A stretch of 64,000 nucleotides of DNA from Actinomycetota bacterium. GTDB taxonomy: Bacteria > Actinomycetota > Acidimicrobiia > Acidimicrobiales > Ilumatobacteraceae. The notes beneath the pieces are model-generated. The model was not told the origin of the DNA. It ran no database searches and was given only the letters and a program-made list of their open reading frames with translations. A program made the translations under genes and the position numbers. Numbering within the stretch: position 1 is the stretch's first letter; each line of letters starts with the position of its first letter. Shown here piece by piece: positions 22,925-54,277 of this stretch. The stretch covers positions 1-64,000 of the forward strand of contig WLHL01000001.1 in assembly GCA_009702755.1 (NCBI GenBank). The letters run 5' to 3'.

Positions 22925-23416
22925 CTAGCGCTTCTTTGCTGCCTTCTTCACAGCCTTCTTAGGTGCTGCTTTCTTGACAGCCTTCTTAGGTGCTGCCTTC
23001 TTCACAACCTTCTTAGCGACAGGCTTCTTTGCAGCAGCCTTCTTCTTAGCTGGTGCTGCCTTCTTCTTTGCAGGTGCTGCGGACTTCTTGGCTGCTGGTG
23101 CAGGAACTGCCTTCTTGGTGTTCAGCTTTGGAGCTGGTGCAACACCGAGTGCAATGTCCTTGAATCCCTTAAGGGCTGTGATCTTGGCAACTGTTTTTGC
23201 CTTGATCTGGATTGTTGCTCCGGTGGCCGGGTTACGGCCGGTGCGTGCTGGACGCTTGATCTTTGCAAACTTTGCAAAACCGGAAATATTTACGACTTCA
23301 CCCTTTGCAACATTGGCGAGGATTACATCAATGGTTCCCTCGACCAACTTTGCTGCGGTCTTGTTATCGACCTCAGTGTGGAGTGCTACTGCTTGAATGA
23401 GTTCACGCTTCTTCAT
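22925..23416 (-). CDS. hupB: HU-family DNA-binding protein with histone H1-like Lys/Ala/Pro tail (HupB type)
   Basis: MKKRELIQAVALHTEVDNKTAAKLVEGTIDVILANVAKGEVVNISGFAKFAKIKRPARTGRNPATG followed by PAKKKAAPAKKKAAAKKPVAKK repeats. Confidence 0.93.
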   Translation of the reverse strand: MKKRELIQAVALHTEVDNKTAAKLVEGTIDVILANVAKGEVVNISGFAKFAKIKRPARTGRNPATGATIQIKAKTVAKITALKGFKDIALGVAPAPKLNTKKAVPAPAAKKSAAPAKKKAAPAKKKAAAKKPVAKKVVKKAAPKKAVKKAAPKKAVKKAAKKR

Positions 23417-23541
23417 GGATGTCACCGTAACCCACCTAGTCAATGAAATCGGGGATTTCCGACACCTGTTTCTCGTCACACCAAAACGGGGGGATGGGAC
23501 TACCGAACAAGCATCTTCAGAGCGACGTGTGGGATGGCGTG

Positions 23542-30286: not shown

Positions 30287-31120
30287 GTGCAGATGCATGT
30301 TTCACAGTTGTGGTCGTATCCGGTGAAGTCCATGGTGGGCGGAACCGTTGATTCCATTGAACTCACCAGCCTTGGCATTGTTGGCGATCGTCATTGGGCG
30401 GTTCGTGACTTAGAACGCGGCGGTATTCGCGGTGGCAAGAAGATTGGCAATCTGATGAAGCTCTCTGCTGCGCGTGATGGCGATGCCGTGTTGATCACAT
30501 TGCCAAATGGTGCAGTGGTGTCTTCAGCCGATGCGCAAGTGAATGCAGTGTTGTCTGAAGCATTAGGAGAATCCGTTGCGTTGGAATCACTTCCTGCTGA
30601 CGGAAATCATGAGCACTTTCGTCGTGGCCCTGCTGATTCTGAAGACATGGTGGAAGAGTTGCGCAACATCTTTGGCAGAGAAGCCGATGAACCATTGCCC
30701 GACTTCAGTGTGTTCCCACCTGAAGTCGTTGAGTTTGAATCACCTCCGGGTACTCATTACGACTGTTGGCCGCTTTTGGTGATGACATCATCTGCGCTGG
30801 AGGCATTGAAGACTGCATTGCCAGAGTCGGTGATTGATATCCGTCGTTTTCGGCCGAGCATTGTGATTGACGGGGCAGATGCAGGTCATCCTGAGTTCTC
30901 GTGGAAGGGTCGAACCGCATCAATTGGCTCAGCAGTTGTTGAGTTTTTGGACCCATGCCCGCGCTGCATCATGGTGACACGCGAGATCAATGCTGAGATT
31001 CCACAAGACCGTTCTATCTTGCGCCACATCGTGCGTGATCTGAATCAGAACCTTGGCGTGTATGCGCGCATCCTCACGCCTGGCACTGTTTCTCTCGACG
31101 ACGTCCTCGATTTTGAGTAG
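30287..31120 (+). CDS. MOSC domain-containing protein
   Basis: VSQLWSYPVKSMVGGTVDSIELTSLGIVGDRHWAVRD...FRPSIVIDGADAG...DPCPRCIMVTREI. Confidence 0.88.
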   Translation: MQMHVSQLWSYPVKSMVGGTVDSIELTSLGIVGDRHWAVRDLERGGIRGGKKIGNLMKLSAARDGDAVLITLPNGAVVSSADAQVNAVLSEALGESVALESLPADGNHEHFRRGPADSEDMVEELRNIFGREADEPLPDFSVFPPEVVEFESPPGTHYDCWPLLVMTSSALEALKTALPESVIDIRRFRPSIVIDGADAGHPEFSWKGRTASIGSAVVEFLDPCPRCIMVTREINAEIPQDRSILRHIVRDLNQNLGVYARILTPGTVSLDDVLDFE

Positions 31121-31131
31121 TCAATTGGCTA

Positions 31132-31455
31132 CTACGCAGGCGTCCAATACACGGACACTCGACGATTCGTTGACGTATCTTTTTCATTCGACTTAATAAC
31201 AAAACCTTGGTAGGTAATCCACATTGTGAGTCCTTTACCTGAAAGGTAATCAGCAACTGCTTGTGCACGGAAGTCAGCGAGGTTTTGCAAATACTTTTTA
31301 GAAATTGTGTTGTTGTGTCGTGAGAAACCAGAGACGAGAAGGGTTCCACATTTTCCTCTGATGTCTTTGAGAGCTTTATTCAAAAGCGCCTTGTCAGCGG
31401 CATCAAGTGTTATTTCTGACGGCGCAAAATCAATCTGTGGCAGTACAAGTTGTCC
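31132..31455 (-). other. OmpA-like domain at the C-terminus of the giant protein
   Basis: LVLPQIDFAPSEITLDAADKALLNKALKDIRGKCGTLLVSGFSRHNN...NLADFRAQAVADYLSGKGL...NRRVSVYWTPA. Confidence 0.75.
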
Positions 31456-34400
31456 AGCTAATGCTGGAATGTTTGTCTTCTTTTCAACACTGAGCGATGT
31501 CTTGCCGGGCCGAACATTAAAGCTCTTTGGTGCCCCCTCTGAGACGCCGCATTGGTTATTGGTGATGATTCGAACCTTCGCTCCCTTTACTGACTTGGGA
31601 ACAACGATGCGTGCCCCAGTGTCTTCTGGGTCTACTTTGACTGTGGCTCGGCGGATGACTTTTCCTGTGCCATCCAAAACGATGAACGACACTGACTGCA
31701 CGCCTGCTAGCGCAGCGGTAGTTCCGAACCTGACGGCAACAACGTTTTCATATCTGTTCACACTTGGCGTTGGAGCAACTGCTGATTTCGAAATTGTGAT
31801 GGGGGCTTTTCCTGCACTAATGATGATGGAAGTAGCAGGAGACACAGGCGACGTATTGCCTGCGAGATCTGAAACGGTAGATGTCATTGACCATGTGCCA
31901 CTCGTCATCGTGCTCATTTCGCACATTGTTACAGCTGGTGATGACTCAAAGGAACAAGTGGCATCCTCACCCTTTGGTCCAACACCGGTCACAGTAGCAA
32001 TATCTCCGGCTGCAACTCCTGCAACCGAGATGTTCGGTGTAGCGTCCAGAGATGTTGATGCTCCATCGTCTTGCGCGTTAAATGGCGCTGCGCTTGCGGC
32101 AGGAGCAGTGGTGTCAATGACAGCAGTCAAAGTTGGTGTGGGCGATGAAGAGTTTTGGGCTTTATCGGTAATGATCGCAGTGATTGACCATGAGCCATCT
32201 TGAAGAGTGGGCAATGTGCATGTGCGGTCAGTTGAAGTAGCGGTGAATGAGCACTGCAGGGTCTGAGTGTTGAGGCTTGCTGTCACTACAACAAAGTCAG
32301 AGTCGCTTGCATCAGAGATGAATACTGATGGTGTGTTGTCGCTGGTGATTCCATCTTTAGAACTGGTGCCAGTGTCTGATAAGTCAACAAAAGAGGCAGC
32401 TTTTGTTGCTAAAGGCGCAGTGGTATCAATTGTGATTGTTAGTTGTTCCGACGCGGCGACCATTAAACCTGCGATGATTTGTCGTGCTCTATAAGACCAG
32501 GTTCCATCAGCAAGGGTTGTGGCAGTGCACACCTCGGTCACATTCTGAGGAATCAAACTGCACACCACATTCGGGAATCCAGATCGTGTGAACGTCACAG
32601 TGGTGTCAATAGATGGGACCAAGTCACCAATGACGACACTCGGCGTGGAGTCTGACAGTGATATAAAATTGATGGGGATTTGAATACCCGCTGTAATGGC
32701 GCGAACAGTGATATCTCCACTTGAGGATGCGGTGGAGTTAGAGATGTAGTTCCCCGCGTCGGTGCCGGTAAGGGTAATGCCCGTAATGTTGACGGGTTTA
32801 TTGCGGCCAAGTTCAGCATCGTCGAATAACGCAGTACTTGAGACCAAGAATGAGTCGCCACTCAGACGGTTGTCGGTATAGGTGACGGTTGCAATATTCG
32901 TGGCGTCATATGTTTTGTTGTTTGCCACGGGCACAACGAGAAGAGGTCGTGCGGTGATGTTTGCTGTTGTGAGAGCAGTGGTGTTGTGGGTGTAGTTGTC
33001 TGCGTCTGTTCCAGTCAGTGTGATTGCGGTAGCTGTAACAGTTTTCTCTGTGCCCACGTTCTTGTCGTTGAAGGTTGGTGAGCCTGTGATCGTGATGGTA
33101 TCTCCAGCGATTCGATCGTCGAGGTACGTGACTGTTGCGTTGTTTGTCTGGTCGTATGTTTTGTTACTTGCAGTGATGATGACGGCAATGTTTCGTGCGG
33201 TGATGTTGGCTGTTGTGGTTGCGGAGTTATTTGACGTGTAGTTGCTTGCGTCAATACCTGACAATGCAATGCCGGACGCGGTCACGGTCTTTTCGGTTCC
33301 AACGTTTTTGTCGCTAAATGTTGAATTTCCGCTGATAGTGAGAACGTCACCAGCGATTCGATCGTCGAGGTACGTGACTGTTGCGTTGTTTGTCTGGTCG
33401 TATGTTTTGTTACTTGCAGTGATGATGACGGCAAGGTTTCGTGCGGTGATGTTGGCTGTTGTTGTCGTTGATGTGTTGGGTGTGTAATTTGCCGCATCTA
33501 TTCCAGTCAGTGAGATTCCCGAAGCTGTGACCGTCTTGTTCATTTCAACGTTCTTTGATGCAAAGGTCGGTGTTCCAGTCACCGTCAGCACATCTCCAGC
33601 GATTCGATCGTCGAGGTAGGTGACTGTTGCGTTGTTTGTCTGGTCGTATGTTTTGTTGTCGGCGGTGATTGTGACAGTAAGGCTGCGTGCGGTGATGTTT
33701 GCTGTGGTGGTGGCGGTGGTGTTTGGTGTGTAGTTGGCGGCGTCGGTTCCGGTGAGGGTGATGCCACTGGCGGTCACTGTTTTGCCATTGCTGACGTTCT
33801 TGTCGCTGAATGTCGCTGTGCTTGAGATGGTGAAGAGGTCATCTGAGATGCGATTGTCGACATAGGTGACGTTTGCTGTATCCGAAGCGTCATATGTCCT
33901 GTTTGTCGCAGAAATTCCAACAGTCAAGGCTTTAGGCGTGATGTCGGCAGTGGCTGTTGGCGAACCAGCAAGGGTCAAGGTGTAGTTGGCGATTCGTGAA
34001 CCAGACAAACTTGCCGTGGTCAAAGACACAACCTTTCCAACTCCGGCGTTCTTGTCTGCGAAGGTTACTACAGGGGATGCCAACGCAATCTTTGTCGAGT
34101 CGTTTGTATCTCCTGCAGGAACATTGACCAGCGTCAGGGCGCTCGGTGTTGTGATAGTTGCACTAGTTGTGCGGTTGTAAGTGCGAGACGATGGTGTCAC
34201 TAATGATCCACCGATTGTCAGTGGTCGCTGAGTGATGTTTGCTGAGAATGTGGGAAGCGTCAGTGTGTAATTGGCCGCGTCAACGCCAGACAATGTGTAG
34301 CCCGATGTCGTAATTCCAATACTTGTTCCCACTGTGGCTTGGGCAAAAGTGAAGGCGGGAACTCCACTCAACGTCACATCATCTGTCAGTTGAACGTCAC

Positions 34401-37400
34401 TTAAGCCAGGGCTGGCTGGTGGAGTGACTTGGGGTGTGGCGTCAGTGGTGGCGTCGTATTGACGATTGACGACAGTGAATGACCCTGTAATCGTGAGCAC
34501 TCGCGGAGTGATGTTTGCCGTCGAGACCCCGTTGATCGTCGCAGATGGCAAAACATAGTTGGGTGCATCAACGCCTGACAGGGTCACGTTTGCAGATGAC
34601 ACAATTTTCCCATTCGAGACACTCTTTGAACTGAATGCAGCATCTCCGCTAACAGTGAAGACATCGCCGTTGATTCGGTTATCTGAGTAGGTCACCGAAG
34701 CTGTGTTGGTTCCGTCGTACACCTTGTTAACTGGTGTCACATTGACTGACAATGATCGTTGATTAATGGTGGCAGTTGCCGTAATGGTTGTGGCGTAGCT
34801 GTAATTGGTGGCATCAATGCCAGTCACCGCAATGCCAGAGACGGTCACAGTTTTGCCGGCCCCTGCCATCTTGTTCGCGAATGTTGCTGAGGTAAAGCTA
34901 ATGGAAAGAACATTGCCTGCAACTCGATCATCTGCAATTGTGACGCTGGCTGACGTCGTTCTGTCGTACGTCTTATCGGATGCAGTTGCGGTGAGAGTGA
35001 GTGTGCGAAGTGTGATGTTTCCGGTTGTAGTGGTTGAGGTGTTGGGTGTGTAGTTGCTGGCATCGGTTCCGCTGAGCAAAATGCTTGAGGCCGTCACAGT
35101 TTTTGCATTTCCGACCGTCCTTGATGAGAATGTCGCTGTTCCAGTAACTGTGAAATCATCTCCTGCAAGTCGATTGTCTGCATAGGTAACAAGTGCCGTC
35201 GTTGTGCTGTCATACACCTTGTTGCTAGCGGTGATAGTGACGGCCAAGCTGCGTGCGTTGATATTTGCTGTGGTGGTGGCGGTGGTGTTGGGTGTGTAGT
35301 TGCCCGAGTCGGTTCCGGTGAGAGTGATGCTGGAAGCGGTGACGGTCTTTGCAAGCCCCACGTTCTTGTCGCTGAATGTAGATGTTCCTGAAACTGTGAA
35401 TTGGTCTCCAGAGACGCGGTTATCGCTGTAAGTCACAGGTGCAGTGTCTGTGCTGTCATACGTCTTGTTAGTTGAAGTCACCGTGACTGACAACGTTCTT
35501 TGGTTAATGGTTGCAGTTGTTGTAATTGTGGTTGGGTACGAATAGTTGGCGGCATCAGTTCCCGCAACAGAGATTCCCGACACTGTGACTGTTTTATTGA
35601 CACCCACAACTTTTGTAGCAAAAGTAGATGACGTATACGTGATTGAGAGGGCGTTTCCTGCCACACGATCATCGCTAATGGAGACCGTTGCATTTGTTGT
35701 GCGGTCGTATGTCCTATCTGTTGCGGTTGCCGTCAATGTCAGCGTTCGCAGTGTGATGTTCGCAGTCGTTGTGGCTGAGGCATTTGGCGTGTAGTTTCCG
35801 GCATCCGTTCCAGAGAGTGAGATACCACTGGCAGTCACCGTCTTGCTGGTGCCGACAGTCTTGGAAGTAAATGTTGCAGTACCACTGACGGTGAAGTCAT
35901 CTCCAGCAACTCTCGTATCTGCGTATACAACAGTTGCGGCGGTCGTGCTGTCGTACACCTTGTTGCTGGCGGTGATGGTGACAGTCAGAGTTCTGGCCGT
36001 GATGTTTGCAGTCGTTGTGGCCGTGGTATTCGGGGTGTAGTTATTGGCATCGACACCAGAAAGAGAAATGCCAGTTGCAGTGACGGTCTTTCCCGTTCCA
36101 ACGTTCTTGTCACTAAATGTGGGGGTTCCACTGACCGTGAAGACATCACTAGAGACTCGATTATCGCCGTATGTGACGGACACTGAATCTGTGGCGTCAT
36201 ACGTTCTGTTGCTTGCCGTAATGGTGATGTTGACAGTTCGTCGTGTGATGTCTGCCGTCGTTGTTGGCGATCCAGTGAGAGACAACGTGTAATTCAATGA
36301 GGTCGTGCCAGTTAGCGATGCAGAGGTCAGCGAAACGGCCTTATTTGTTGCAACAGTTTTGTTGGTGTATTGCGCTACCAACCCGGCGAGAGCAACTTTC
36401 GACGGGTTGTTTGCATCGCCTACGGGAACATTGAGCAGCGATAGAGCACTGCTATCGGTGATGGTGCTTGATGTCGTGCGGTCGTACATCTTTGTTGAAG
36501 CGACAATTAATGAGCCATCAATGGTGAGTGGTCGTTGTGTGATGTTGGCAGTGAATGTAGGTGAGGTGAGCGAATAGTTATCGGCATCGGCTCCGGTGAG
36601 TGAATACCCAGAGGTGGAGATGCCAATGTTTGTCCCCACAGTTGCTTGGGCGAAAGTGAATGTTGGTACACCTGTCAAGGAGGTGTCGTCACCCACTTGC
36701 ACTTCTGATAGCCCGGTGCTGGCGGGCAGGGTGACCTGACTGGTGGCATCTGTCGTTGCGTCATACGGACGATTGGCAACTGTGAACGTTCCCGTCACTG
36801 TGAGATTTCGCTTGGTGATGTTGGCAGTAGTAGTCGCGGTGGTGTTATGCGCGTAGTTATTGGCATCCGCGCCAGAGAGTGCGATGCCGGTCGCAGTGAC
36901 CGTCTTCCCATTGACTGCGGTTTTGTCGTCAAAGGTGGCAGTACCCGAAACGGTGAACAAGTCTCCATTGATTCTGTTATCTGCGTAGGACACCGATGCT
37001 GCAATGGCGGCGTTGTACACCTTGTTGCTGGCGGTGATGGTGACGGCAAGCGACTTTGCGGTGATGGTGGCGGTGGTCGTCGCCGTCGTGTTTTGCGTGT
37101 AGTTGGCTGCGTCTGTCCCAGAGATGGCGATGCTTGCCGCAGTCACTGTTTTTCCAGTTCCAACGTGCTTGTCGGCAAACGTGGGGGTTCCTGTGACCGT
37201 GAGGGAGTCGCCTGACACACGGTTGTCGGAGTACACAACGCTTGCGGTGGTGGTGCGGTCGTACACCTTGTCGCTGGCGGTAATGGTGACGGCAAGCGAT
37301 TTTGCGGTGATGGTGGCGGTGGTCGTCGCAATCGTGTTGTAGGTGTAGTTGCCAGCATCGGTACCACTAATGGAAATTCCTGAAGCAGTAACTGTCTTGT

Positions 37401-40400
37401 TTGACGCCACCGTTTTGGTGGAAAATGTTGGTGTACCGGTCACTGTGAAGACGTCACCAGAGACGCGGTTGTCTGCGTATGCAACGCTGGCAGTGGTGTT
37501 GCCGTCGTACGTCTTGCCGCTGGCCGTGATGGTGACGGTGAGACTGCGTGCTGTGATATTGGCAGTTGCCGTCGCAGTGGTGTTCTGCGAGTAGTTACCA
37601 GAGGCTGCACCACTCAACGAAATTGAGTTTGCGGTAACAGTCTTTGATGTCCCAATCTCTTTGTCGGAGAATGTCGGAACGCCACTGATGGTCATCACGT
37701 CGCCCGATACACGGTTGTCTGTGTACACAACGCTGGCGGTGGTGTTTCCGTCGTATGTCTTGTTGCTGGCGTTGATTGTGACGTTGAGAGTGCGAGGTGT
37801 AATGGTCGCATAGGTAATGGGGGAGTTGTTCACCGACACTGCGTAGTTGCTGAGGTCAGCTCCGGTGAACTGGAACGATGTAAGTTCCACAATCTTGTTC
37901 ACGCCAACATTTGCATCAGATCTAAAGCGTCCACGTGGGTTGGTGACTCCCACTAGGTCGTTTCCTTGAACGCCAACAAGTGTGAGATCTGCAATGTCGT
38001 ATGAGGCGGTTCGTGTTCCGTCGTACACCTTGTTTTGTGCCTGAAGTGTTCCAGTTACTTCAAGTGGTCGCTGCTCAATATCGGCAGTCGATGTCGAGGT
38101 GAGGTTTTGTTGGTAATTGCCGGCATCTGTTCCAGTGATGGTGATGTTTGTGATGGAGACCGGTTTACCAAGAGCTGCAGTCTTCGTTGTGAACGCCGCG
38201 GTGCCTGTCACGGTGAAGACATCACCAGACACTCTGTCGTCACTGTAGACAGCGGTAGCGTTAACCGTTGCGTCGTACATCTTTGTATCAGCAACTGCGG
38301 TCACGTTCAAAGTACGAATCGTGATGTTTGCAGTCGTGGTCGTGCCGGTGTTTTGTGAATAGTTAGCGGCGTCGCTTCCGCTAATCGTGATACCAGTTGC
38401 GGTGACTGTCTTTGTGGTTCCGATGTTCTTGTTGTCGAAAGTCGATGTTCCACTCACCGTGAACAAGTCCCCGCCGACGCGATCGTCAATGTAAGTCACT
38501 GATGCACTGGTATTGCCGTCGTACACCTTGTTTGATGCCGTGATAGTCACGGCTAATGATCGTGTGGTGATGTTGGCTGTAGTGCTGGATGTGGTGTTCG
38601 GGGTGTAGTTGCCAGAATCCGTACCCGACAGCGTGATGCCACTGGTGGACACCGTCTTTCCCGTCCCCACTGTCTTGTTGGCAAATGCCGACGTTGCCGA
38701 GTAGTTGAAGGTGTCGCCCGAAACTCTGTTGTCGCTAAATGTCACTGTTGCTGCTGTCGTCCGGTCATAGACCTTGTTCACACCGGTTGTAGTGACAGTC
38801 AATGTTCGGCGTGTGATGTTTGCGGTATTTGTCGCAGTGGAGTTTGGGGTGTAGTTGCCTGAATCCGTCCCGGACAACGTGATGCCGCTTGCGGTAACAG
38901 TCTTCACGGTTCCCACGTTCTTATCTGAGAACGTCGCAGTTCCACTCACCGAGAAGGTGTCGCCTGAAATTCGAGTGTCTCCGTACGTCACCGACGCGAC
39001 ATCGTTTCCGTCGTATGTCTTGGACGTTGGCGTGATGGAAATAGTTACAGATCTTCGTGTGATATCGGCAGTGGTTGTTGGGGCACCGACAATGGACAAG
39101 GTGTAGTTGGTGGATGTTGACCCAGTGAGAGATGCGGTCGAGAGGGTGACAGTCTTTGCTGTCCCCACGTTCTTATCGGCGTACGATGCGACGAGAGATG
39201 TCAACGCCACCTTTGATGGTGTGTTTGCATCGCCTGCGGGGACATTTTGCAACAGCAACTGAGCAGAATCAGTAATGGTCGCTGTTACTCCTTTGTCGTA
39301 CACCTTCGACGAAGAAACAGCTAATGCACCGCCGATTGTCAAGGGTCGTTGGGTGATGTTGGCAGCGAAGCTTGGTTGTGTGAGCGCGTAGTTGTTGCCA
39401 TCTACTCCGGATACGGAATAACCAGTGGTTGAAATTCCAATTCCGGTACCCACGGTGGCCTGCGCGAAGGTAAACGTAGGAGTTCCCGTCAGTGCAGCGT
39501 CGTCGCCAGCTACAACATCAGACAGACCGGCACTCACTGGGAGTGTCACTTGCGCCGTTGCGTCGGTAGTGGCGTCGTACTGGCGGTTTGCAATCGTGAA
39601 TGTTCCTGTCACGGTAAGGGGACGTTTTGTGATGTTGGCCGTCGATGTGGTGCTGGTGTTGTGGTCGTAGTTACCCGCATCGGTGTTTGTCACCGTGATC
39701 CCAGTTGCGGTCACGGTTTTTGACGTTCCGATGTTCTTGTCGCTAAAGGTTGCCGTAGAGCTGAAAGTCAGAGCATCGCCTGATACACGGTTATCGGTAT
39801 ATGTCACTACTGCAATATCGCTTGCGTTGTAGACCTTGCTAGATGGAGTGATTTCAATGGTGAGGGGTCGTTTTGTGATGTTGGCAGTTGTGGAGGCGGT
39901 GGTGTTTTGGGTGTAGTTACCAGCATCGGTACTGGACAATGAAATACCGCTTGCAGTAACAGTCTTCCCGTCGCCCACGTTCTTATCTGAGAATGTTGGC
40001 GTGCCGGTGATGACAAGAATGTCTCCAGAGATGCGGTTGTCGTTATATGTCACCGTTGCAGTCGTAGTACGGTCGTACACCTTGTTGGATGCCGTGATGG
40101 TGACAGTCAACGTGCGACGGTTGATGTTTGCCGTTGTTGTCGTGGAGGTGTTGGGTGAATAGTTGGAGGCATCAACACCAGAAAGCGAAATGCTGTTTGC
40201 AGTCACCGTCTTTGACAATCCATAGTTCTTATTTGAGAATGTTGCAACGCCACTCACTGTGATGTCGTCGCCCGACACTTTGTTATCGGCATACACGACA
40301 GATGCAGTCGCGTTTCCGTCATAGGTCTTGCTAGAAGCTGTAATAGTGACTGCAAGCGATCTCGCCAGAATAGACGCAGTTGCGGTTGCTGTTGTGTTGA

Positions 40401-43400
40401 ATGAGTAGTTCGCTGAATCCACACCACTGATTGCCATGTTGGTGGCGGTCACAGTTTTGTTGGTCCCCACGTTTTTGTCTGCATATGTCGGAGTTCCACT
40501 GACGGCGAGAGTGTCTCCAGATATACGAGTGTCAGTGAAGGAAACTGATGCATTCATGGTTCCGTCATATGTTTTATTGCTGAGTGTGAATCCAAGTGTG
40601 ATGGAGCGTTGGGTGATGTCAGCCGTCGTCGTGGGAGCACCAACGGTGGTGATGGTGTAATTGGATGCAGTGGTGCCAGTAAGAGCCGCAGTTGCAACGC
40701 TGACTATCTTGCCCGTTCCAACATTCTTGTTGTCGTACGTGGCGGTCAATGATGTCAGCGCAACCTTCGCAGCGTTGTTCGCGTCTCCTGCAGGAACATT
40801 GACCAGGGTGAGAAGTGATGTGTCAGTGATGGTGGCGGCCGTTGATCTGTTGTAGGTCTTCGTGCTTGTCACGCCCAATGTTCCGCCAATCGTGAGTGGG
40901 CGCTGCGTGATGTTTGCGGTGAAACTCGGGGGCGTTAACACGTAGTTGGCGGCGTCGGCCCCAATAACGGAATAGCCCGTTGTTGTAATTCCGATTCCAT
41001 TGCCCACAGTTGCCTGAGCAAACGTGAATGTCGGAGTTCCGGACAATGTTGTGTCGTCACCAGCTTGCACATCTGATAGGCCAGCACTGACGGGCAGTGT
41101 GATTTGCGGAGTGGCGTCTGTGGTGGCGTCGTACTGACGGTTGGCAACGGTGAAGGTTCCGGTCACTGTCAAAGATCGACGAGTGATGTTTGCGGTTGTG
41201 CTGGCGGTGGTGTTCTGCGAATAGTTGGCCGCGTCAGTTCCCGACAGTGTGATGCCAGTCGCCGTGACGGTCTTTGCATCGCCGAAGTTCTTGGAGTCAA
41301 AGTTTGCGGTGCCACTGACAGTTAATTGATCTCCGGAGACACGATTGTCCGCATATGTCACCGAAGCCACAGTCAATGCGTTGTAGATCTTGTTTGTTGC
41401 GGTGATGGTGACATTGAGGGTTCGCAGCGTGATGTTTGCAGTGGCGGTTGGTGCACCCACAGTGCTGAGCACATAGTTCGAAACTGAAGTTCCAGTGATG
41501 CTGGCGCTAGAGAGCGACACGGTCTTTGCATCGCCAACCGTTTTGTTTGCGTATTGAGCAACAAGACTAGTGAGTGCAAGCCGCGTTGCATTTCCTGCGT
41601 CAATGGAGGCAACGTTTACAAGTGTGAGCGCTGCCGTGTTGGTAATGCTGATTGATGTTGCGGAGTCGTAGGTCTTGGTTGATGGAACTACCAACGAACC
41701 TCCGATAGTCACCGTGCGTGTAGTGATATTGGATGACAGAGTCAATTGGGTCAACGTGTAGTTCGATGCATCGTCTCCGGTGATGGAGTACCCAGAACCG
41801 GTGATGGAAATTGCTGTGCCAACATTTGCGTTGTTGTACGTGAAGACGGGAGTTCCAGTCAATACGACATTGTCTGCCACTTGAATCGGAGTAATTCCTG
41901 GACTGGCTGGAACCGACACATTGCCGGTTGCATCAGTTGTTCCGTCGTAGATGCGATTGGACGCGGTAAATGTTCCCGTAATGGTCAGTGTTCGCGTACT
42001 AATTGACGCTGTTGTTGTTGCTGTTGTATTTCCCAAAACATAATTGTTGGAACTTGCGCCACTAATGGCGATACCTGTTGCGGTGATGGTCTTGCCAGTT
42101 GCGGCTGACTTATTGGCGTAAGTGGCAGTTCCTGTGATGGTGAGAGTGTCGGCGGCGACCTTGTCGCTCGCATACGTCACTGAAGCAGTGGTAGACGCGT
42201 CGTACGTTTTCCCGCCGCCACTAATGGTCACAGTCAGAGTTCTCACGGTGACATTTGCGGTTGTGGTCGCAGAAGTGTTTGGTGTGTAGTTCGAGGCGTC
42301 AGTGCCAGAGAGGGAAATGCTGGTAGCTGTGACGGTTTTTCCCGTTCCAACTGTGGCGGAATCAAAGGTGGGAGTTCCACTCGCGGTGAAAGAGTCGCCA
42401 CTAATTCGATCGTCTGTGTACGTAACAGACGCAGCGGTTGATCCGTTGTACACCTTGTTGGTGGCTGTGATGGTGACAACGAGAGGTTTTGCGGTGATGT
42501 TCGCGGTTGTTGTCGCTGTGGTGTTCGCAGTGTAGTTTGCGGCATCGGTACCGGTGACCGAGATGCCTGTTGCATTGACAGTCCTTGATGTTCCCGCTGC
42601 TTTGCTGGCAAATGAAGCAGTACCTGTGATGGTGAGGGTATCGCTCGCAACTTTGTTACTGCCGTACGTCACCGACACAGTTGTTCCGGCGTCATACACC
42701 TTGTTGGAAGCGGTGATGGTGACAGTCAGCGACCGCTGAGTGATATTTGCTGTTGTTGTTGCGGTGGTGTTTGCGGTGTAGTTCCCTGCATCTGTTCCAG
42801 AAATAGAAATGCCAGACACCGACACTGTCTTGTTTACTTCAACAATCTTCGTGGCATATGTTGCTGACGTGTAAGCCAATGTGACTGTGTCTGCACCAAG
42901 CTTGTCGCTCGCTAATGTGACGGTTGCTGTAGTTAGGCCGTCGTAGGTTTTGTTGACGCCTGTTGCCGTGACGGTCAACGTTCGTGCGGTGATGTTGGCA
43001 GTAGCGGTTGGGGATCCTGTAAGGCTTAACGAGTAGTTGGCGGCTGACGTGCCAGACAATGATGCGGATGTCAGTGAGACAGCTTTGGACGTACCAACTG
43101 TCTTTGTTGCGTACTGCGCAACGGGCGACGCAAGTGCCAACTTTGATGCGTTGCCTGAATCGCCAGCTGGAACATTGGACAACGTGAGGAGACCAGAGTT
43201 GACGAATGTTGCGGTGAGTGCGCCGTCGTACACCTTGGTAGATGCAACAGACAACGTTCCGCTCACGGTGATTGTGCGAGCCGTGATATTTGCTGACAGA
43301 ACGGGCAGGGTCAATGTGTAGTTAGCAGCATCGGCGCCGGCGAGTGAATAGCCGCTCGTGGTGATGGAGAGTGTGATGCCGATTCCGGCTTGAGAAAATG

Positions 43401-46071
43401 CAAATGATGGCGTTCCAGAGAGCGAAACGGAATCAGTTCCTTGAATTGTTGCAAGCGTTGGTGACGCGGGCGTCGTTACTGTCGCTGTTGTGGTGGCGTC
43501 GTAAAACTTGTTTGAGGACGTAAAGGTGCCCGTGATGGTGAGGGCACGTTGTGAGATCGTTGCTGTTGTTGTTGCACTTGTATTTGGCGTGTAGTTAGCG
43601 GAGTCCGTTCCGGAGACTGTGATTCCAGTTGCAGTAATGGTTTTGTTTGCTGCTGCTGTCTTGTCGGCGTAGGTGGCTGTTCCGGACACAGTGAGAAGAT
43701 CACCAGAAATACGGTCGTCTGTGTATGTCACTGATGCTGACGTGTTCGCGTTGTATGTCTTTCCACCACCGGTGATTCCAACAAGCAGAGCACGTTGGGA
43801 GATTGTTGCTGTAGTTGTAGCACTTGTGTTTTGTAGTGAGTAGTTGCTCGCATCTGTTCCGGAGACTGTGATTCCAGTTGCAGTGATGGTTTTGTTTGTT
43901 GTTGCTGTCTTGTCGGCGTAGGTGGCTGTTCCGGACACAGTGAGAAGATCACCAGAAATACGGTTGTCGGTGTACGTCACTGTGGCAGCCGTGGTTCGGT
44001 CATATGTTTTGCCGCCTCCCGTGATGCCGATAGTGAGGGGGCGCGTCGAGATATTTGCTGTCACAGTCGCTGTGGTGTTGTACGTGTAGTTGGCAGCATC
44101 GGTACCAGAAACGGAGATTCCTGTGGCTGTGATGGTTTTGGTGGAGCCCACAGCTTTCGTTGCGTACGTGGCAGTTCCCGTGATTGTGATGTTGTCTCCG
44201 GACAGGCGGTTGTCGGTGTAGGTCACAGTGGCGGATGTATTTCCGTCGTAGGTCTTGCCGCCACCACTGATGCCAATGGTGAGAGTTCTCAGGGTGATGT
44301 TCGCAGTGGTGGTGGTGCTGGTGTTGTGCGTGTAGTTAGCGGCGTCTGTTCCAGAAATTGTGATACCAGTTGCTGTCACCGTCTTTGATGTACCAACGGC
44401 TTTTGAATCAAATGTTGCGGTTCCGCTGACTGTAAATAAGTCGCCAGAAATTCTGTCGTCAAGGTAAGTGACGCTTGCTGTTGCATTCCCGTCGTATTGT
44501 TTGTTGGTTGCCGTGATTGTGACAGCAAGCGCCTTGGCAGTGATGTTTGCGGTGGCCGTTGGCGCGCCACTCAGCGACACGGTGTAGTTGAATCTCGCAG
44601 AACCGGAAAGGGTGGCCGAGGTAACAGACACCGTCTTTGAGGTGCCGACATTTTTGTTTGCGTACTGAGCAACGATGTTTGTGAGCGAGAGGTTCGAAAG
44701 TTCGGCGGATACTGCGTTGACAAGTGTTAACGCTCCAGTATTGGAAATTGTTGCACCTGATGTTCCGTCGTACACGCGAGTGGACGGAACTTGGAGTGTT
44801 CCGCCAATGGTGAGAGTACGTGCGGTGACATTTGCCGTCGCGGTGGCGTTACTTGGGAACGTGTAGTTATCCGCATCAGCACCATCGCCAGATATTCCAG
44901 AAATGTTGATGGTGAGACCTGTGCCGATACCTACCTGTGTGAATTGAGATGTCGTGGCACTAATAGTTCCAAGAACATCTCCCACGACACGAGTGTCGCT
45001 AGCAACTGTGAATGTCGCAGTCGCTGTCCCGTCGTACGTCTTATTGACACCTGCGAATGTGATGCTGAGGGAGCGCTTCATAATCTCTCCCACCAACGAT
45101 GGTTGAGTGAGCAAATAGTTGCTTGCAGTGGTTCCGCTGAGGCCGTAAGAGAGGCTTGGTGTTACTGGGATATTCGTACCCACTGAATCTTGTGTGTAGG
45201 TGAACGTTGGCGATCCCGAAATGGTGATGCTGTCGCCACTCAGAATTCCATTCAACGTTGGAGTTCCCATTGCAGTGGCAGTTGTTGTGCTGTCGTAGGT
45301 CTTGCTAAATGATGGAGGAGTGATGGTGACGCTCTGTTGTGCAATGGTGGCTGTCGTCGTGGGTGCACCTGACAACGTGATGTAGTAATTCCCAGCTTGC
45401 GCTCCGGTCAAAGTTGACGATGTAGAAAGACTCACCGTCTTGCCGACTCCAGCGTTTGCATTTGCGAATATCACTACCGGCACCAATGTCACCGTGTCGC
45501 CATCAAGAACATCAATTAATCCAGGGGTTAAAGAGTCGGTCGCAATCGTCGCAGAATTTGATCTGTCGTACGTCTTATTGTTTGCTGTAAAACTTCCGCG
45601 AATAGAAAACGCACGTTGCTGCACTGTGATGGCAATCATGGTGCTCGTTGATTCGCCACTTTGTGCTGTGGCGACAACATTCATTTGATAATTACCTGCA
45701 TTGGGGCCGTTGTTAATTTGGTACAGCGTCAAGGTTGCGCCGGTGTCTGACGCATTCGAGAAAACGGCAGACACGTTGCTTGGCACATTTGTCGTTGTCC
45801 ACGAAATTGGGCCAGTCGCACTTTCAAGATCTGCAGTGAGGTCAAATGACGTGTCATCCCAAATTCCGTAGGACAGGACAACGTTGGTGTTCGTTTGATT
45901 AGTGATGACGAGTGCATAAAGAGTTGATGCACCCGTAACGATGAAGATCAACAGCCCAAACAGTGCCAAGACTTTTCGGAGAGAGACGCGCGCCCATCGA
46001 CTCCTTGCAAAATACCCCTTAGTAAGAGGTGCCTCCGTATCCACGAAGAGAGGATATAGATGAATGTCCAA
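31132..46071 (-). CDS. giant secreted repeat protein (about 50 YDG/MBG-like repeats, Ig-like modules, OmpA-like C-terminus)
   Basis: Single uninterrupted 4979-codon ORF; TM/signal LRKVLALFGLLIFIVTGASTLYALVI; repeats with K.YD.....VTY.D.R.SGD...V.GT.TF..K.VGT.KTVTA.GI.LSGTDA.NYT.NT.ATTTANIT; start uncertain (TTG at 46071). Confidence 0.92.
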   Translation of the reverse strand: MDIHLYPLFVDTEAPLTKGYFARSRWARVSLRKVLALFGLLIFIVTGASTLYALVITNQTNTNVVLSYGIWDDTSFDLTADLESATGPISWTTTNVPSNVSAVFSNASDTGATLTLYQINNGPNAGNYQMNVVATAQSGESTSTMIAITVQQRAFSIRGSFTANNKTYDRSNSATIATDSLTPGLIDVLDGDTVTLVPVVIFANANAGVGKTVSLSTSSTLTGAQAGNYYITLSGAPTTTATIAQQSVTITPPSFSKTYDSTTTATAMGTPTLNGILSGDSITISGSPTFTYTQDSVGTNIPVTPSLSYGLSGTTASNYLLTQPSLVGEIMKRSLSITFAGVNKTYDGTATATFTVASDTRVVGDVLGTISATTSQFTQVGIGTGLTINISGISGDGADADNYTFPSNATATANVTARTLTIGGTLQVPSTRVYDGTSGATISNTGALTLVNAVSAELSNLSLTNIVAQYANKNVGTSKTVSVTSATLSGSARFNYTVSLSGAPTATANITAKALAVTITATNKQYDGNATASVTYLDDRISGDLFTVSGTATFDSKAVGTSKTVTATGITISGTDAANYTHNTSTTTTANITLRTLTIGISGGGKTYDGNTSATVTYTDNRLSGDNITITGTATYATKAVGSTKTITATGISVSGTDAANYTYNTTATVTANISTRPLTIGITGGGKTYDRTTAATVTYTDNRISGDLLTVSGTATYADKTATTNKTITATGITVSGTDASNYSLQNTSATTTATISQRALLVGITGGGKTYNANTSASVTYTDDRISGDLLTVSGTATYADKTAAANKTITATGITVSGTDSANYTPNTSATTTATISQRALTITGTFTSSNKFYDATTTATVTTPASPTLATIQGTDSVSLSGTPSFAFSQAGIGITLSITTSGYSLAGADAANYTLTLPVLSANITARTITVSGTLSVASTKVYDGALTATFVNSGLLTLSNVPAGDSGNASKLALASPVAQYATKTVGTSKAVSLTSASLSGTSAANYSLSLTGSPTATANITARTLTVTATGVNKTYDGLTTATVTLASDKLGADTVTLAYTSATYATKIVEVNKTVSVSGISISGTDAGNYTANTTATTTANITQRSLTVTITASNKVYDAGTTVSVTYGSNKVASDTLTITGTASFASKAAGTSRTVNATGISVTGTDAANYTANTTATTTANITAKPLVVTITATNKVYNGSTAASVTYTDDRISGDSFTASGTPTFDSATVGTGKTVTATSISLSGTDASNYTPNTSATTTANVTVRTLTVTISGGGKTYDASTTASVTYASDKVAADTLTITGTATYANKSAATGKTITATGIAISGASSNNYVLGNTTATTTASISTRTLTITGTFTASNRIYDGTTDATGNVSVPASPGITPIQVADNVVLTGTPVFTYNNANVGTAISITGSGYSITGDDASNYTLTQLTLSSNITTRTVTIGGSLVVPSTKTYDSATSISITNTAALTLVNVASIDAGNATRLALTSLVAQYANKTVGDAKTVSLSSASITGTSVSNYVLSTVGAPTATANITLRTLNVTITATNKIYNALTVASVTYADNRVSGDQLTVSGTANFDSKNFGDAKTVTATGITLSGTDAANYSQNTTASTTANITRRSLTVTGTFTVANRQYDATTDATPQITLPVSAGLSDVQAGDDTTLSGTPTFTFAQATVGNGIGITTTGYSVIGADAANYVLTPPSFTANITQRPLTIGGTLGVTSTKTYNRSTAATITDTSLLTLVNVPAGDANNAAKVALTSLTATYDNKNVGTGKIVSVATAALTGTTASNYTITTVGAPTTTADITQRSITLGFTLSNKTYDGTMNASVSFTDTRISGDTLAVSGTPTYADKNVGTNKTVTATNMAISGVDSANYSFNTTATATASILARSLAVTITASSKTYDGNATASVVYADNKVSGDDITVSGVATFSNKNYGLSKTVTANSISLSGVDASNYSPNTSTTTTANINRRTLTVTITASNKVYDRTTTATVTYNDNRISGDILVITGTPTFSDKNVGDGKTVTASGISLSSTDAGNYTQNTTASTTANITKRPLTIEITPSSKVYNASDIAVVTYTDNRVSGDALTFSSTATFSDKNIGTSKTVTATGITVTNTDAGNYDHNTSTTSTANITKRPLTVTGTFTIANRQYDATTDATAQVTLPVSAGLSDVVAGDDAALTGTPTFTFAQATVGTGIGISTTGYSVSGVDGNNYALTQPSFAANITQRPLTIGGALAVSSSKVYDKGVTATITDSAQLLLQNVPAGDANTPSKVALTSLVASYADKNVGTAKTVTLSTASLTGSTSTNYTLSIVGAPTTTADITRRSVTISITPTSKTYDGNDVASVTYGDTRISGDTFSVSGTATFSDKNVGTVKTVTASGITLSGTDSGNYTPNSTATNTANITRRTLTVTTTGVNKVYDRTTAATVTFSDNRVSGDTFNYSATSAFANKTVGTGKTVSTSGITLSGTDSGNYTPNTTSSTTANITTRSLAVTITASNKVYDGNTSASVTYIDDRVGGDLFTVSGTSTFDNKNIGTTKTVTATGITISGSDAANYSQNTGTTTTANITIRTLNVTAVADTKMYDATVNATAVYSDDRVSGDVFTVTGTAAFTTKTAALGKPVSITNITITGTDAGNYQQNLTSTSTADIEQRPLEVTGTLQAQNKVYDGTRTASYDIADLTLVGVQGNDLVGVTNPRGRFRSDANVGVNKIVELTSFQFTGADLSNYAVSVNNSPITYATITPRTLNVTINASNKTYDGNTTASVVYTDNRVSGDVMTISGVPTFSDKEIGTSKTVTANSISLSGAASGNYSQNTTATATANITARSLTVTITASGKTYDGNTTASVAYADNRVSGDVFTVTGTPTFSTKTVASNKTVTASGISISGTDAGNYTYNTIATTTATITAKSLAVTITASDKVYDRTTTASVVYSDNRVSGDSLTVTGTPTFADKHVGTGKTVTAASIAISGTDAANYTQNTTATTTATITAKSLAVTITASNKVYNAAIAASVSYADNRINGDLFTVSGTATFDDKTAVNGKTVTATGIALSGADANNYAHNTTATTTANITKRNLTVTGTFTVANRPYDATTDATSQVTLPASTGLSEVQVGDDTSLTGVPTFTFAQATVGTNIGISTSGYSLTGADADNYSLTSPTFTANITQRPLTIDGSLIVASTKMYDRTTSSTITDSSALSLLNVPVGDANNPSKVALAGLVAQYTNKTVATNKAVSLTSASLTGTTSLNYTLSLTGSPTTTADITRRTVNITITASNRTYDATDSVSVTYGDNRVSSDVFTVSGTPTFSDKNVGTGKTVTATGISLSGVDANNYTPNTTATTTANITARTLTVTITASNKVYDSTTAATVVYADTRVAGDDFTVSGTATFTSKTVGTSKTVTASGISLSGTDAGNYTPNASATTTANITLRTLTLTATATDRTYDRTTNATVSISDDRVAGNALSITYTSSTFATKVVGVNKTVTVSGISVAGTDAANYSYPTTITTTATINQRTLSVTVTSTNKTYDSTDTAPVTYSDNRVSGDQFTVSGTSTFSDKNVGLAKTVTASSITLTGTDSGNYTPNTTATTTANINARSLAVTITASNKVYDSTTTALVTYADNRLAGDDFTVTGTATFSSRTVGNAKTVTASSILLSGTDASNYTPNTSTTTTGNITLRTLTLTATASDKTYDRTTSASVTIADDRVAGNVLSISFTSATFANKMAGAGKTVTVSGIAVTGIDATNYSYATTITATATINQRSLSVNVTPVNKVYDGTNTASVTYSDNRINGDVFTVSGDAAFSSKSVSNGKIVSSANVTLSGVDAPNYVLPSATINGVSTANITPRVLTITGSFTVVNRQYDATTDATPQVTPPASPGLSDVQLTDDVTLSGVPAFTFAQATVGTSIGITTSGYTLSGVDAANYTLTLPTFSANITQRPLTIGGSLVTPSSRTYNRTTSATITTPSALTLVNVPAGDTNDSTKIALASPVVTFADKNAGVGKVVSLTTASLSGSRIANYTLTLAGSPTATADITPKALTVGISATNRTYDASDTANVTYVDNRISDDLFTISSTATFSDKNVSNGKTVTASGITLTGTDAANYTPNTTATTTANITARSLTVTITADNKTYDQTNNATVTYLDDRIAGDVLTVTGTPTFASKNVEMNKTVTASGISLTGIDAANYTPNTSTTTTANITARNLAVIITASNKTYDQTNNATVTYLDDRIAGDVLTISGNSTFSDKNVGTEKTVTASGIALSGIDASNYTSNNSATTTANITARNIAVIITASNKTYDQTNNATVTYLDDRIAGDTITITGSPTFNDKNVGTEKTVTATAITLTGTDADNYTHNTTALTTANITARPLLVVPVANNKTYDATNIATVTYTDNRLSGDSFLVSSTALFDDAELGRNKPVNITGITLTGTDAGNYISNSTASSSGDITVRAITAGIQIPINFISLSDSTPSVVIGDLVPSIDTTVTFTRSGFPNVVCSLIPQNVTEVCTATTLADGTWSYRARQIIAGLMVAASEQLTITIDTTAPLATKAASFVDLSDTGTSSKDGITSDNTPSVFISDASDSDFVVVTASLNTQTLQCSFTATSTDRTCTLPTLQDGSWSITAIITDKAQNSSSPTPTLTAVIDTTAPAASAAPFNAQDDGASTSLDATPNISVAGVAAGDIATVTGVGPKGEDATCSFESSPAVTMCEMSTMTSGTWSMTSTVSDLAGNTSPVSPATSIIISAGKAPITISKSAVAPTPSVNRYENVVAVRFGTTAALAGVQSVSFIVLDGTGKVIRRATVKVDPEDTGARIVVPKSVKGAKVRIITNNQCGVSEGAPKSFNVRPGKTSLSVEKKTNIPALAGQLVLPQIDFAPSEITLDAADKALLNKALKDIRGKCGTLLVSGFSRHNNTISKKYLQNLADFRAQAVADYLSGKGLTMWITYQGFVIKSNEKDTSTNRRVSVYWTPA
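31800..32705 (-). other. three Ig-like modules each with one Cys pair
   Basis: VVCSLIPQNVTEVCTATTLADGTWSY, LQCSFTATSTDRTCTLPTLQDGSWSI, ATCSFESSPAVTMCEMSTMTSGTWSM. Confidence 0.75.
32705..45625 (-). repeat. about 50 tandem YDG/MBG-like protein repeats of ~82-98 codons
   Basis: Manual segmentation at the (N/D)IT-xR junctions gave 50 units; 12.9 kb / 50 is about 258 bp per unit, consistent with the observed unit lengths. Confidence 0.88.
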
Positions 46072-46244
46072 CTCTGCTTTGGTGCCTGCAAACAGAGGAC
46101 TTTGGGAAACTTACATCGATGTCATTTGAATGTGATGACAGAGTCCACCACTCCGGTCACCAGAAGAGCTCACAACGCATGAACAGAAGCACTCTTCTGC
46201 ATCGCCGGTGCCACCGCCTCCTGTTGGCTAGTTAGTCTCGCCAT

Positions 46245-47279
46245 ATGAGGATTGGTGTACTGACTGGTGGCGGAGATTGTCCAGGTCTGAACGCTGTGAT
46301 TCGTGCGGTAACTCGTAAAGCGATCAACGATTTCGGCGATTCCGTCGTTGGGTTTCTTGATGCATGGGATGGCGTGCTTGAGAAACGCTCCACCGAACTG
46401 ACAGTTGCTCGACTCGCGGGCATCTTGCCTCGTGGCGGCACGATTCTCGGTACACGGCGCGGTAGTCCGTACGACTTGCCCGATGGTCCCGCACAGGTCA
46501 AACAAAATCTCGCCGACATGGGCGTTGATGCATTGATTGTCATCGGTGGCAATGGTTCATTGTGGGTCGCATCACACTTGAACGAAGATGTCGGTATTCC
46601 AATCGTTGGTGTTCCAAAAACAATCGACAACGACATTGCTGAAACAGACGTGTGTTTCGGTTTCCACACTGCAGTGCAAATTGCAACAGATGCAATTGAT
46701 CGTTTGCACACCACCGCAGAAAGTCATGACCGCGTCATGGTGGTGGAAGTCATGGGACGTGACACGGGGTGGATCGCAACGTATGCCGGTATTGCTGGTG
46801 GCGCCACTGCAATTCTCATTCCCGAACGCCCTTTCGACATCGACGACATCGCAAATGAAGTGAAGCGAAAGCATTCACGTGGTCGGTATGCATCCATTGT
46901 TGTCGTGGCCGAAGGTGCAATGCCGAAAGAGGGCACAATGCCTGAGCCTCGCTACGACCTAGATCCGTTTGGCCGACCACGGCTCGGTGGCATCAGTGTG
47001 GAAGTTGCTCACGCAATCGAAGAGCGCACTGGCTTTGAAACTCGAGTGGTGCAGATTGGTCATGTGCAACGCGGTGGAACGCCGAATGCATTTGATCGTG
47101 TCTTGTCAACACGTTTGGGTATTGCAGCTGTTGAAGCACTGCACGCCGGTGAATGCAGCACCATGGTGGGTGTGCGAAACGAGCAGATTGTCCACGTGCC
47201 ACTATCCGAGGTGGTGGGCAAAACTCGCCACGTCGACTTGTCGCTGTACGACGATGTTGCCACCGTGTTCTTTGGCTAA
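46245..47279 (+). CDS. pfkA: 6-phosphofructokinase
   Basis: MRIGVLTGGGDCPGLNAVIRAV...GVPKTIDNDIAETDVCFGFHTAVQ...VMVVEVMGRDTGWIA. Confidence 0.93.
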   Translation: MRIGVLTGGGDCPGLNAVIRAVTRKAINDFGDSVVGFLDAWDGVLEKRSTELTVARLAGILPRGGTILGTRRGSPYDLPDGPAQVKQNLADMGVDALIVIGGNGSLWVASHLNEDVGIPIVGVPKTIDNDIAETDVCFGFHTAVQIATDAIDRLHTTAESHDRVMVVEVMGRDTGWIATYAGIAGGATAILIPERPFDIDDIANEVKRKHSRGRYASIVVVAEGAMPKEGTMPEPRYDLDPFGRPRLGGISVEVAHAIEERTGFETRVVQIGHVQRGGTPNAFDRVLSTRLGIAAVEALHAGECSTMVGVRNEQIVHVPLSEVVGKTRHVDLSLYDDVATVFFG

Positions 47280-53359: not shown

Positions 53360-54277
53360 TTACAGATTCGTGGGCAGCAATCGTGTGAGATAGCCAAAGA
53401 ACAGGAACAAAGTCGGCAAAAACACAACAGCAGCCACGGGGTAGACAATGACCGCGCGCCATTTCTTTCCGGCCCACCAGCGGGCAATGCCAGCAATCGC
53501 AATCAGTAGGAATGCAAACAGAATCACCATCGGCCATGCAGATGGATCATGGAACCAGCCTTCAGAGAGAACAACTTCTGGCTCATCTGTTTCGGCGACG
53601 AACACAGTGGGCTTTTGCGGAGCAATCTCTTTCACAAGCTCGGCTGAAATGATCATGCGATTTTCTGATGTCCACTTTGGATGGCATGTGACAAGAGTGA
53701 GAATGGCGCGAGCGGGATCGACGGTGCGAATCACATCGACATCAGTTGCTTGCACAATGGTGGGCGGGCCTGTCACGAGATACACGAATTCACCGCGTGA
53801 TGTCTGCAACACGATGCGGTCGCCTTCAACAAGTTCGTTGACGCGTCCAAACGGTGCACCGAAGGTTGTGCGATGTCCTGCAAGAGACACGTTGCCCAAT
53901 TGGCCGGGGAGCGGTGAGCCAGCAAAGAGCCCTGGACCTTTTTCCAGTTCTTTGTATCCCACGCCAGCAACGACGAACTTGTCGACGTTGATTTTGTCGA
54001 TGACGATCTGGGCAACAACGTCGCCTTTTGCAGGGGCAGGGGGAAGTGTCGTGGTGGTCGGCGCATCTGTTGATGACGCAGCAATTGTGGTCTTGGTGAC
54101 GAATTGCGATTTGAGTTTGTTCTGTGCCTGGCGTTCAGCAAGGCCCGTACCCCACAACTGATACGCCACAAAGAGAAGAAGGAGAACGCCAGCGGAAATG
54201 AGGGTCTTGCCCACGAGGTCAAGACCGGAATTGATGCGCTGCTGGCGCTTCAGTGCCTTGATATCCGTGGAATCCAT
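53360..54277 (-). CDS. class E sortase
   Basis: IDKINVDKFVVAGVGYKELEKGPGLFAGSPLPGQLGNVSLAGHRTTFGAPF...ILTLVTCHPKWTSENRMI (TLxTC and catalytic Arg). Confidence 0.9.
   Translation of the reverse strand: MDSTDIKALKRQQRINSGLDLVGKTLISAGVLLLLFVAYQLWGTGLAERQAQNKLKSQFVTKTTIAASSTDAPTTTTLPPAPAKGDVVAQIVIDKINVDKFVVAGVGYKELEKGPGLFAGSPLPGQLGNVSLAGHRTTFGAPFGRVNELVEGDRIVLQTSRGEFVYLVTGPPTIVQATDVDVIRTVDPARAILTLVTCHPKWTSENRMIISAELVKEIAPQKPTVFVAETDEPEVVLSEGWFHDPSAWPMVILFAFLLIAIAGIARWWAGKKWRAVIVYPVAAVVFLPTLFLFFGYLTRLLPTNL

Follow-up and report, generated by a model that had tools for sequence, protein, structure and literature searches.

Fibrillar adhesins are marked by great length and tandem stalk domains, and the YDG domain is listed among their stalk domains (Monzon and Bateman 2022, PMC9210967). 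Enrichment in threonine has also been reported for these proteins. Here we describe a giant protein encoded in a 64,000-nucleotide window, the whole stretch of DNA that was analysed, from a genome of the Ilumatobacteraceae. With YDG-stalk fibrillar adhesins it shares a very long chain (4970 residues), predicted secretion, tandem YDG domains (50 units), a threonine-rich composition and an actinobacterial host; threonine and serine together account for 31.7% of its residues, in line with the reported enrichment. In contrast to them, it has neither a recognised adhesive domain nor an LPxTG-type anchor, and it ends in an OmpA-like tail instead.

Periscope proteins are made of near-identical repeats whose number varies between strains, whereas the units of the giant protein are 44% identical on average and their order and lengths are stable between species. 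Judged on unit identity and between-species order, the giant protein is thus not a periscope protein. SiiE, the giant adhesin of Salmonella, consists of its own Ig domains throughout and leaves the cell through a type I export system. The three C-terminal Ig modules of the giant protein fit the SiiE Ig domains (2yn3, 2yn5) best by fold, but its bulk consists of YDG domains and its N-terminus looks Sec-type. GhpA, the grappling-hook protein of Aureispira (9flp and related), is likewise about 5,000 residues long with tandem domains; it is a surface appendage and was the best PDB match of our YDG model. This match is generic, however (TM ~0.2, 11% identity), and evidence for a hook or an oligomer is absent for the giant protein.

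Results

A single open frame encodes the giant protein

The minus strand of the window carries an open reading frame at 31132-46071 that comprises 4979 codons from a TTG and contains no internal stop. From its codon-position composition, ~91 stops would be expected in this frame; the two remaining minus-strand frames contain 164 and 171. This confirmed the single uninterrupted ~14.9 kb frame described in the first-pass annotation, but its start had to be corrected. Since an NTG is found at one aligned position in five genomes, and this position corresponds to the GTG at 46044 of the window, translation most likely starts at this GTG (Table 1). A near-palindromic block, CCTCTTACTAAGRGG, surrounds the GTG start and a TATAKC-like element lies upstream of it (both ~46020-46060, minus strand); each is conserved in most of the five genomes. 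Judged from the sequence, they may represent a candidate operator and leaderless promoter. A sigma-70 promoter scan upstream of the giant gene gave no match.

Table 1. Features of the giant gene and its surroundings (window coordinates).
Feature	Position	Strand	Basis or remark
MOSC gene	30287..31120	+	conserved left border; flanks giant gene
Giant gene	31132..46044	-	GTG to stop, 4970 aa (most likely start); open frame and aligned NTG in 5 genomes
OmpA-like C-terminal domain, divergent	31135..31437	-	profile search and homologous paralogue
Three Big_13-type Ig modules	31813..32670	-	71 bits to Big_13; one C-x10-C pair per module
Array of 50 YDG units, 82-95 aa each	32701..45612	-	PF18657 profile; cysteine absent
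Units 37-39 and 40-42, three-unit tandem duplication	34762..36243	-	missing from G001 and G026 arrays
Unit 30, odd unit	37798..38067	-	<=38% identity to any other unit
Unique N-terminal region, ~100 aa	45613..45912	-	possible Ig-like tip; sub-threshold family matches only
Signal peptide (predicted)	45913..46044	-	basic n-region, hydrophobic core, probable cleavage near STLYA|LV; read from sequence
3' remnant of deleted ~230-aa gene	46162..46231	+	complete at that place in G001, G026, G011
Phosphofructokinase gene	46245..47279	+	conserved right border; flanks giant gene

Domain architecture and predicted structure

From the N- to the C-terminus, the protein consists of a signal-like segment, ~100 unique residues, 50 YDG domains, three Big_13-type Ig modules and an OmpA-like end. 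The N-terminal hydrophobic segment noticed earlier is indeed present; it spans ~20 residues and its cleavage site is moderate only. The unique region that follows is 63-100% identical in four other genomes and represents a candidate adhesive region.

Where the first-pass annotation counted about 50 units, there are exactly 50 at the K-x-Y-D anchor. All 50 stretches scored above the curated Pfam cut-off of 25 bits for PF18657 (YDG), with 38-63 bits each and 1918 bits in sum. The repeats had been called YDG/MBG-like, of which the YDG part stands, while no MBG model matched the protein in the Pfam scan. By length, the units fall into classes A (82-84 aa), B (~93 aa) and C (95 aa), which are arranged in a partial A-A-A-A-B-C pattern of higher order, and neighbouring units are 47% identical, compared with the mean of 44%. 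In two other species, the counterpart of the odd unit 30 shares 93% identity with it. The claim of three Ig-like modules was upheld by the Big_13 profile and by structure prediction. Neither Pfam nor NCBIfam matches to the protein included an adhesive domain, and no NCBIfam model names it. The earlier comparison with filamentous adhesins does not fit if meant in the FHA/TpsA sense, since no domain of that type turned up and the host belongs to an actinobacterial family.

An AlphaFold2 model of five consecutive YDG units, computed from an input alignment of 15 window and relative segments, predicted beta-sandwich domains (pLDDT 94.7) with a recurring beta-strand pattern and a short helix at the conserved D-A-x-N-Y. 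Its best PDB fold matches were mostly surface fibres built of Ig-like repeats (Aureispira GhpA, an Aeromonas RTX adhesin extender, cadherin). Because their TM-scores are low, these matches to the predicted model mark a generic Ig-like fold and not kinship. No solved YDG structure was recovered by profile search. In a model of the C-terminal part, three Ig domains were predicted confidently, with SiiE as the closest fold (E 1e-13), while the OmpA-like end was modelled poorly (pLDDT mostly <60).

The OmpA-like tail and the orientation of the protein

The 'distinct C-terminus' of the first-pass annotation exists and proved to be OmpA-like, a family that had been left unnamed. Against PF00691, the tail of the giant protein reached 22.8 bits and a paralogue with the same tail 31.5 bits, under and over the cut-off of 27.2, respectively, and a profile search from the tail arrived at solved OmpA domains (E 2.7e-4). 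By profile the tail appears to belong to the same family as the OmpA-like peptidoglycan-binding domains of PF00691, including that of mycobacterial Rv0899. In OmpA of A. baumannii, the diaminopimelate-binding residues are Asp271 and Arg286 (PMC7573547). The arginine is invariant across the aligned tails, whereas all of them show S/A-R-H/Y/Q-N at the place of the Asp (GFSRHN in the giant protein), so that only one residue of the canonical pair is kept. The loop that contains the Asp position also carries a two-residue insertion in the tail of the giant protein.

The same tail is shared by otherwise different secreted proteins in 14 of 33 congeners. Among these is a paralogue family of ~1,190 aa proteins (L057:1048-4605, L054:1-2079, L058:1822-5373) with a signal peptide, Big_13 modules (five in L057), a CDGP domain and the OmpA-like tail, and it also terminates another YDG protein of the genus (G026:C96). 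Since this tail closes different proteins within the genus, the balance tips slightly towards reading it as the anchor of the giant protein. Sortase-anchored surface proteins carry an LPxTG-type motif, a hydrophobic segment and a basic tail at the C-terminus. Anchoring by sortase was rejected, as the last 50 residues contain no such motif and the C-terminus reads ...RRVSVYWTPA. A class E sortase gene is located within a few kb of the giant gene (53360-54277, minus strand; NCBIfam 167.6 bits, above cut-off).

Conceivably, the protein could be mounted the other way round, with the N-terminal hydrophobic segment serving as a membrane signal anchor and the Big_13/OmpA-like end distal and binding. 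The merely moderate cleavage site behind a hydrophobic stretch of this length, the OmpA-like end without the canonical Asp, and the closeness of the three Ig modules to the binding-type Ig domains of SiiE would all fit such an arrangement. However, the occurrence of one tail on several otherwise different secreted proteins is what would be expected of an anchor, and characterised OmpA-like domains are cell-wall binders. We consider the reversed orientation unlikely and tentatively retain the C-terminal end as the one held at the cell.

Conservation of unit order and sequence

In G001, 34 of the 35 units compared (units 1-5 and 8-37) matched best the window unit at the same position of the array, with 81.9% identity versus 66.0% for the best other unit. 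Similarly, 34 of 39 units of G026 found their best match by position, and 38 of the 39 were identical in length. Changes in unit number were located near the C-terminal end, namely the duplication of three units in the window lineage and, in G001, a terminal run of greater length. The G001 copy displays a frame break and a deletion of ~118 bp in units 6-7. The break lies where a tract begins that shares 86-91% identity with the window, as compared to ~71% before it, and is best explained by a chimeric join or a recent recombination event. The relatives' loci that bear accessions belong to Ilumatobacteraceae or Actinomycetota MAGs.

For the orthologous units of the window and G001, pN was 0.114 and pS 0.663 (dN/dS ~0.08; silent sites are close to saturated). 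The corresponding values were 0.108 and 0.669 for phosphofructokinase, and 0.215 and 0.607 for the MOSC gene. As its values are close to those of phosphofructokinase, the YDG array appears to evolve about as conservatively as this glycolytic enzyme; its low pN may in part stem from a strong bias in composition. Together with the colinear units, this points to purifying selection and supported the proposal that the intact frame is under selection.

Presence and absence of the giant gene among relatives

The genes flanking the giant gene are conserved. In G001, G026 and G011, MOSC is followed by the giant gene (reverse), a ~230-aa gene and phosphofructokinase, where the order in G011 and G026 was read from two contigs each, the contig ends cutting the array. 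The conserved ~230-aa gene (L064), located upstream of phosphofructokinase in these three genomes, has no Pfam match and underwent several losses in the genus. In G023, as in the window, it has shrunk to a 3' remnant beside phosphofructokinase. Because the giant and the small gene occur together in G001, G026 and G011, the remnant points to a later deletion in the window lineage; the idea that the short sequence upstream of phosphofructokinase is a scar of giant-gene insertion was rejected.

At the same site, the giant gene is missing in six congeners. The flanking genes are separated by 72, 25 and 46 bp in G012, G004 and G006, respectively, and by the small gene alone in G003, G016 and G018. 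The phosphofructokinase of G012 is 99% identical and the tree groups G012 with the window and G023 (99/99). On these grounds the giant gene would have been lost in G012, repeated gain at one site being less likely. YDG domains are scarce in the class, being found in 4 of 296 sampled genomes, all of them Ilumatobacteraceae; such carrier counts from YDG hits are lower bounds, as several genomes break inside the array, while the absence of the gene is firm where the empty site lies on a single contig. A phage origin of the giant gene was rejected, as no similarity was found among 50,697 phage records, and so was a plasmid origin, where only distant Proteobacteria YDG proteins (30-43% identical) were encountered.

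Several further long proteins were observed in the genus. YDG proteins of 2300-4700 aa, apparently non-orthologous to the window gene, are encoded on G007:C23, G023:C43, G015:C7 and G026:C96. An open frame of 6930 aa, which is larger still, is located on G026:C1 near 65000-66000 and resembles the C-terminal modules of the giant protein in its Ig-like similarity. The window itself also encodes an HU/IHF-type DNA-binding protein (22925-23479, minus strand) with a long Lys/Ala/Pro-rich C-terminal tail derived from short tandem repeats.

Discussion

The giant protein belongs to a known kind, the YDG-stalk surface proteins, and less usual are its fixed unit order and its clean loss in close relatives. 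Since YDG is a recognised stalk domain, and in agreement with the five-unit model, the earlier suggestion of a cell-surface stalk is well supported, and we regard this role as very likely. The alternative wording, 'stalk or adhesin', holds for the stalk; an adhesin is plausible, though no adhesive domain was detected, and we only lean towards adhesion as the role of the protein.

Taken together, and with the orientation left soft, the giant protein is probably a Sec-secreted cell-surface fibre, whose expression and location are predictions. It would be exported through the Sec system by means of its signal-like N-terminus, and its domains, stacked end to end, would form a rod of ~200 nm, as estimated from ~54 Ig-sized domains of ~4 nm each. 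The Big_13/OmpA-like end would stay held in the cell wall, while the unique N-terminal region would be presented outward to make contact with a particle, an alga or a neighbouring cell. A more far-reaching proposal, namely a genus-specific giant-fibre family of the Ilumatobacteraceae in which the Asp-less OmpA-like tail is a new wall or surface anchor of a monoderm lineage and all 50 units are fixed in position by selection, appears doubtful to us.

Rather than an adhesin, a brush of long Thr/Ser-rich rods could form a protective coat or decoy against phages or grazers. Such a role is compatible with the Pfam and NCBIfam scans, which found no adhesive domain, and with the patchy distribution among close relatives, as might be seen in surface features under frequency-dependent selection. 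On the other hand, unit order is strictly conserved, as are single units such as unit 30, which exceeds the needs of a brush, and evidence for glycosylation is absent, which makes this explanation rather improbable. Finally, an assembly artefact or a decaying, functionless repeat gene, as might be suspected from the G001 frame break with its lost ~118 bp and from the other genomes that break inside the array, is highly improbable: the open frame is not an assembly collapse or expansion, since its longest exact repeat is 85 bp and its units are colinear in two other species, and the window copy is fully open, unit order and lengths agree across independent assemblies and pN is far under pS, so that the artefact considered in the first-pass annotation was not borne out.

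Returning to the surface fibre, the giant protein is probably an optional surface trait, because some close relatives carry its gene and others lack it. Within a genome of 1.8 Mb, ~0.8% of the length is devoted to this single surface protein. Its unit order outlasted the near-saturation of silent sites, while close relatives cleanly lost the gene. The giant gene is therefore a good natural test of why bacteria retain very long repeat proteins, and also of the role of optional surface fibres in a group that is here seen through MAGs only.
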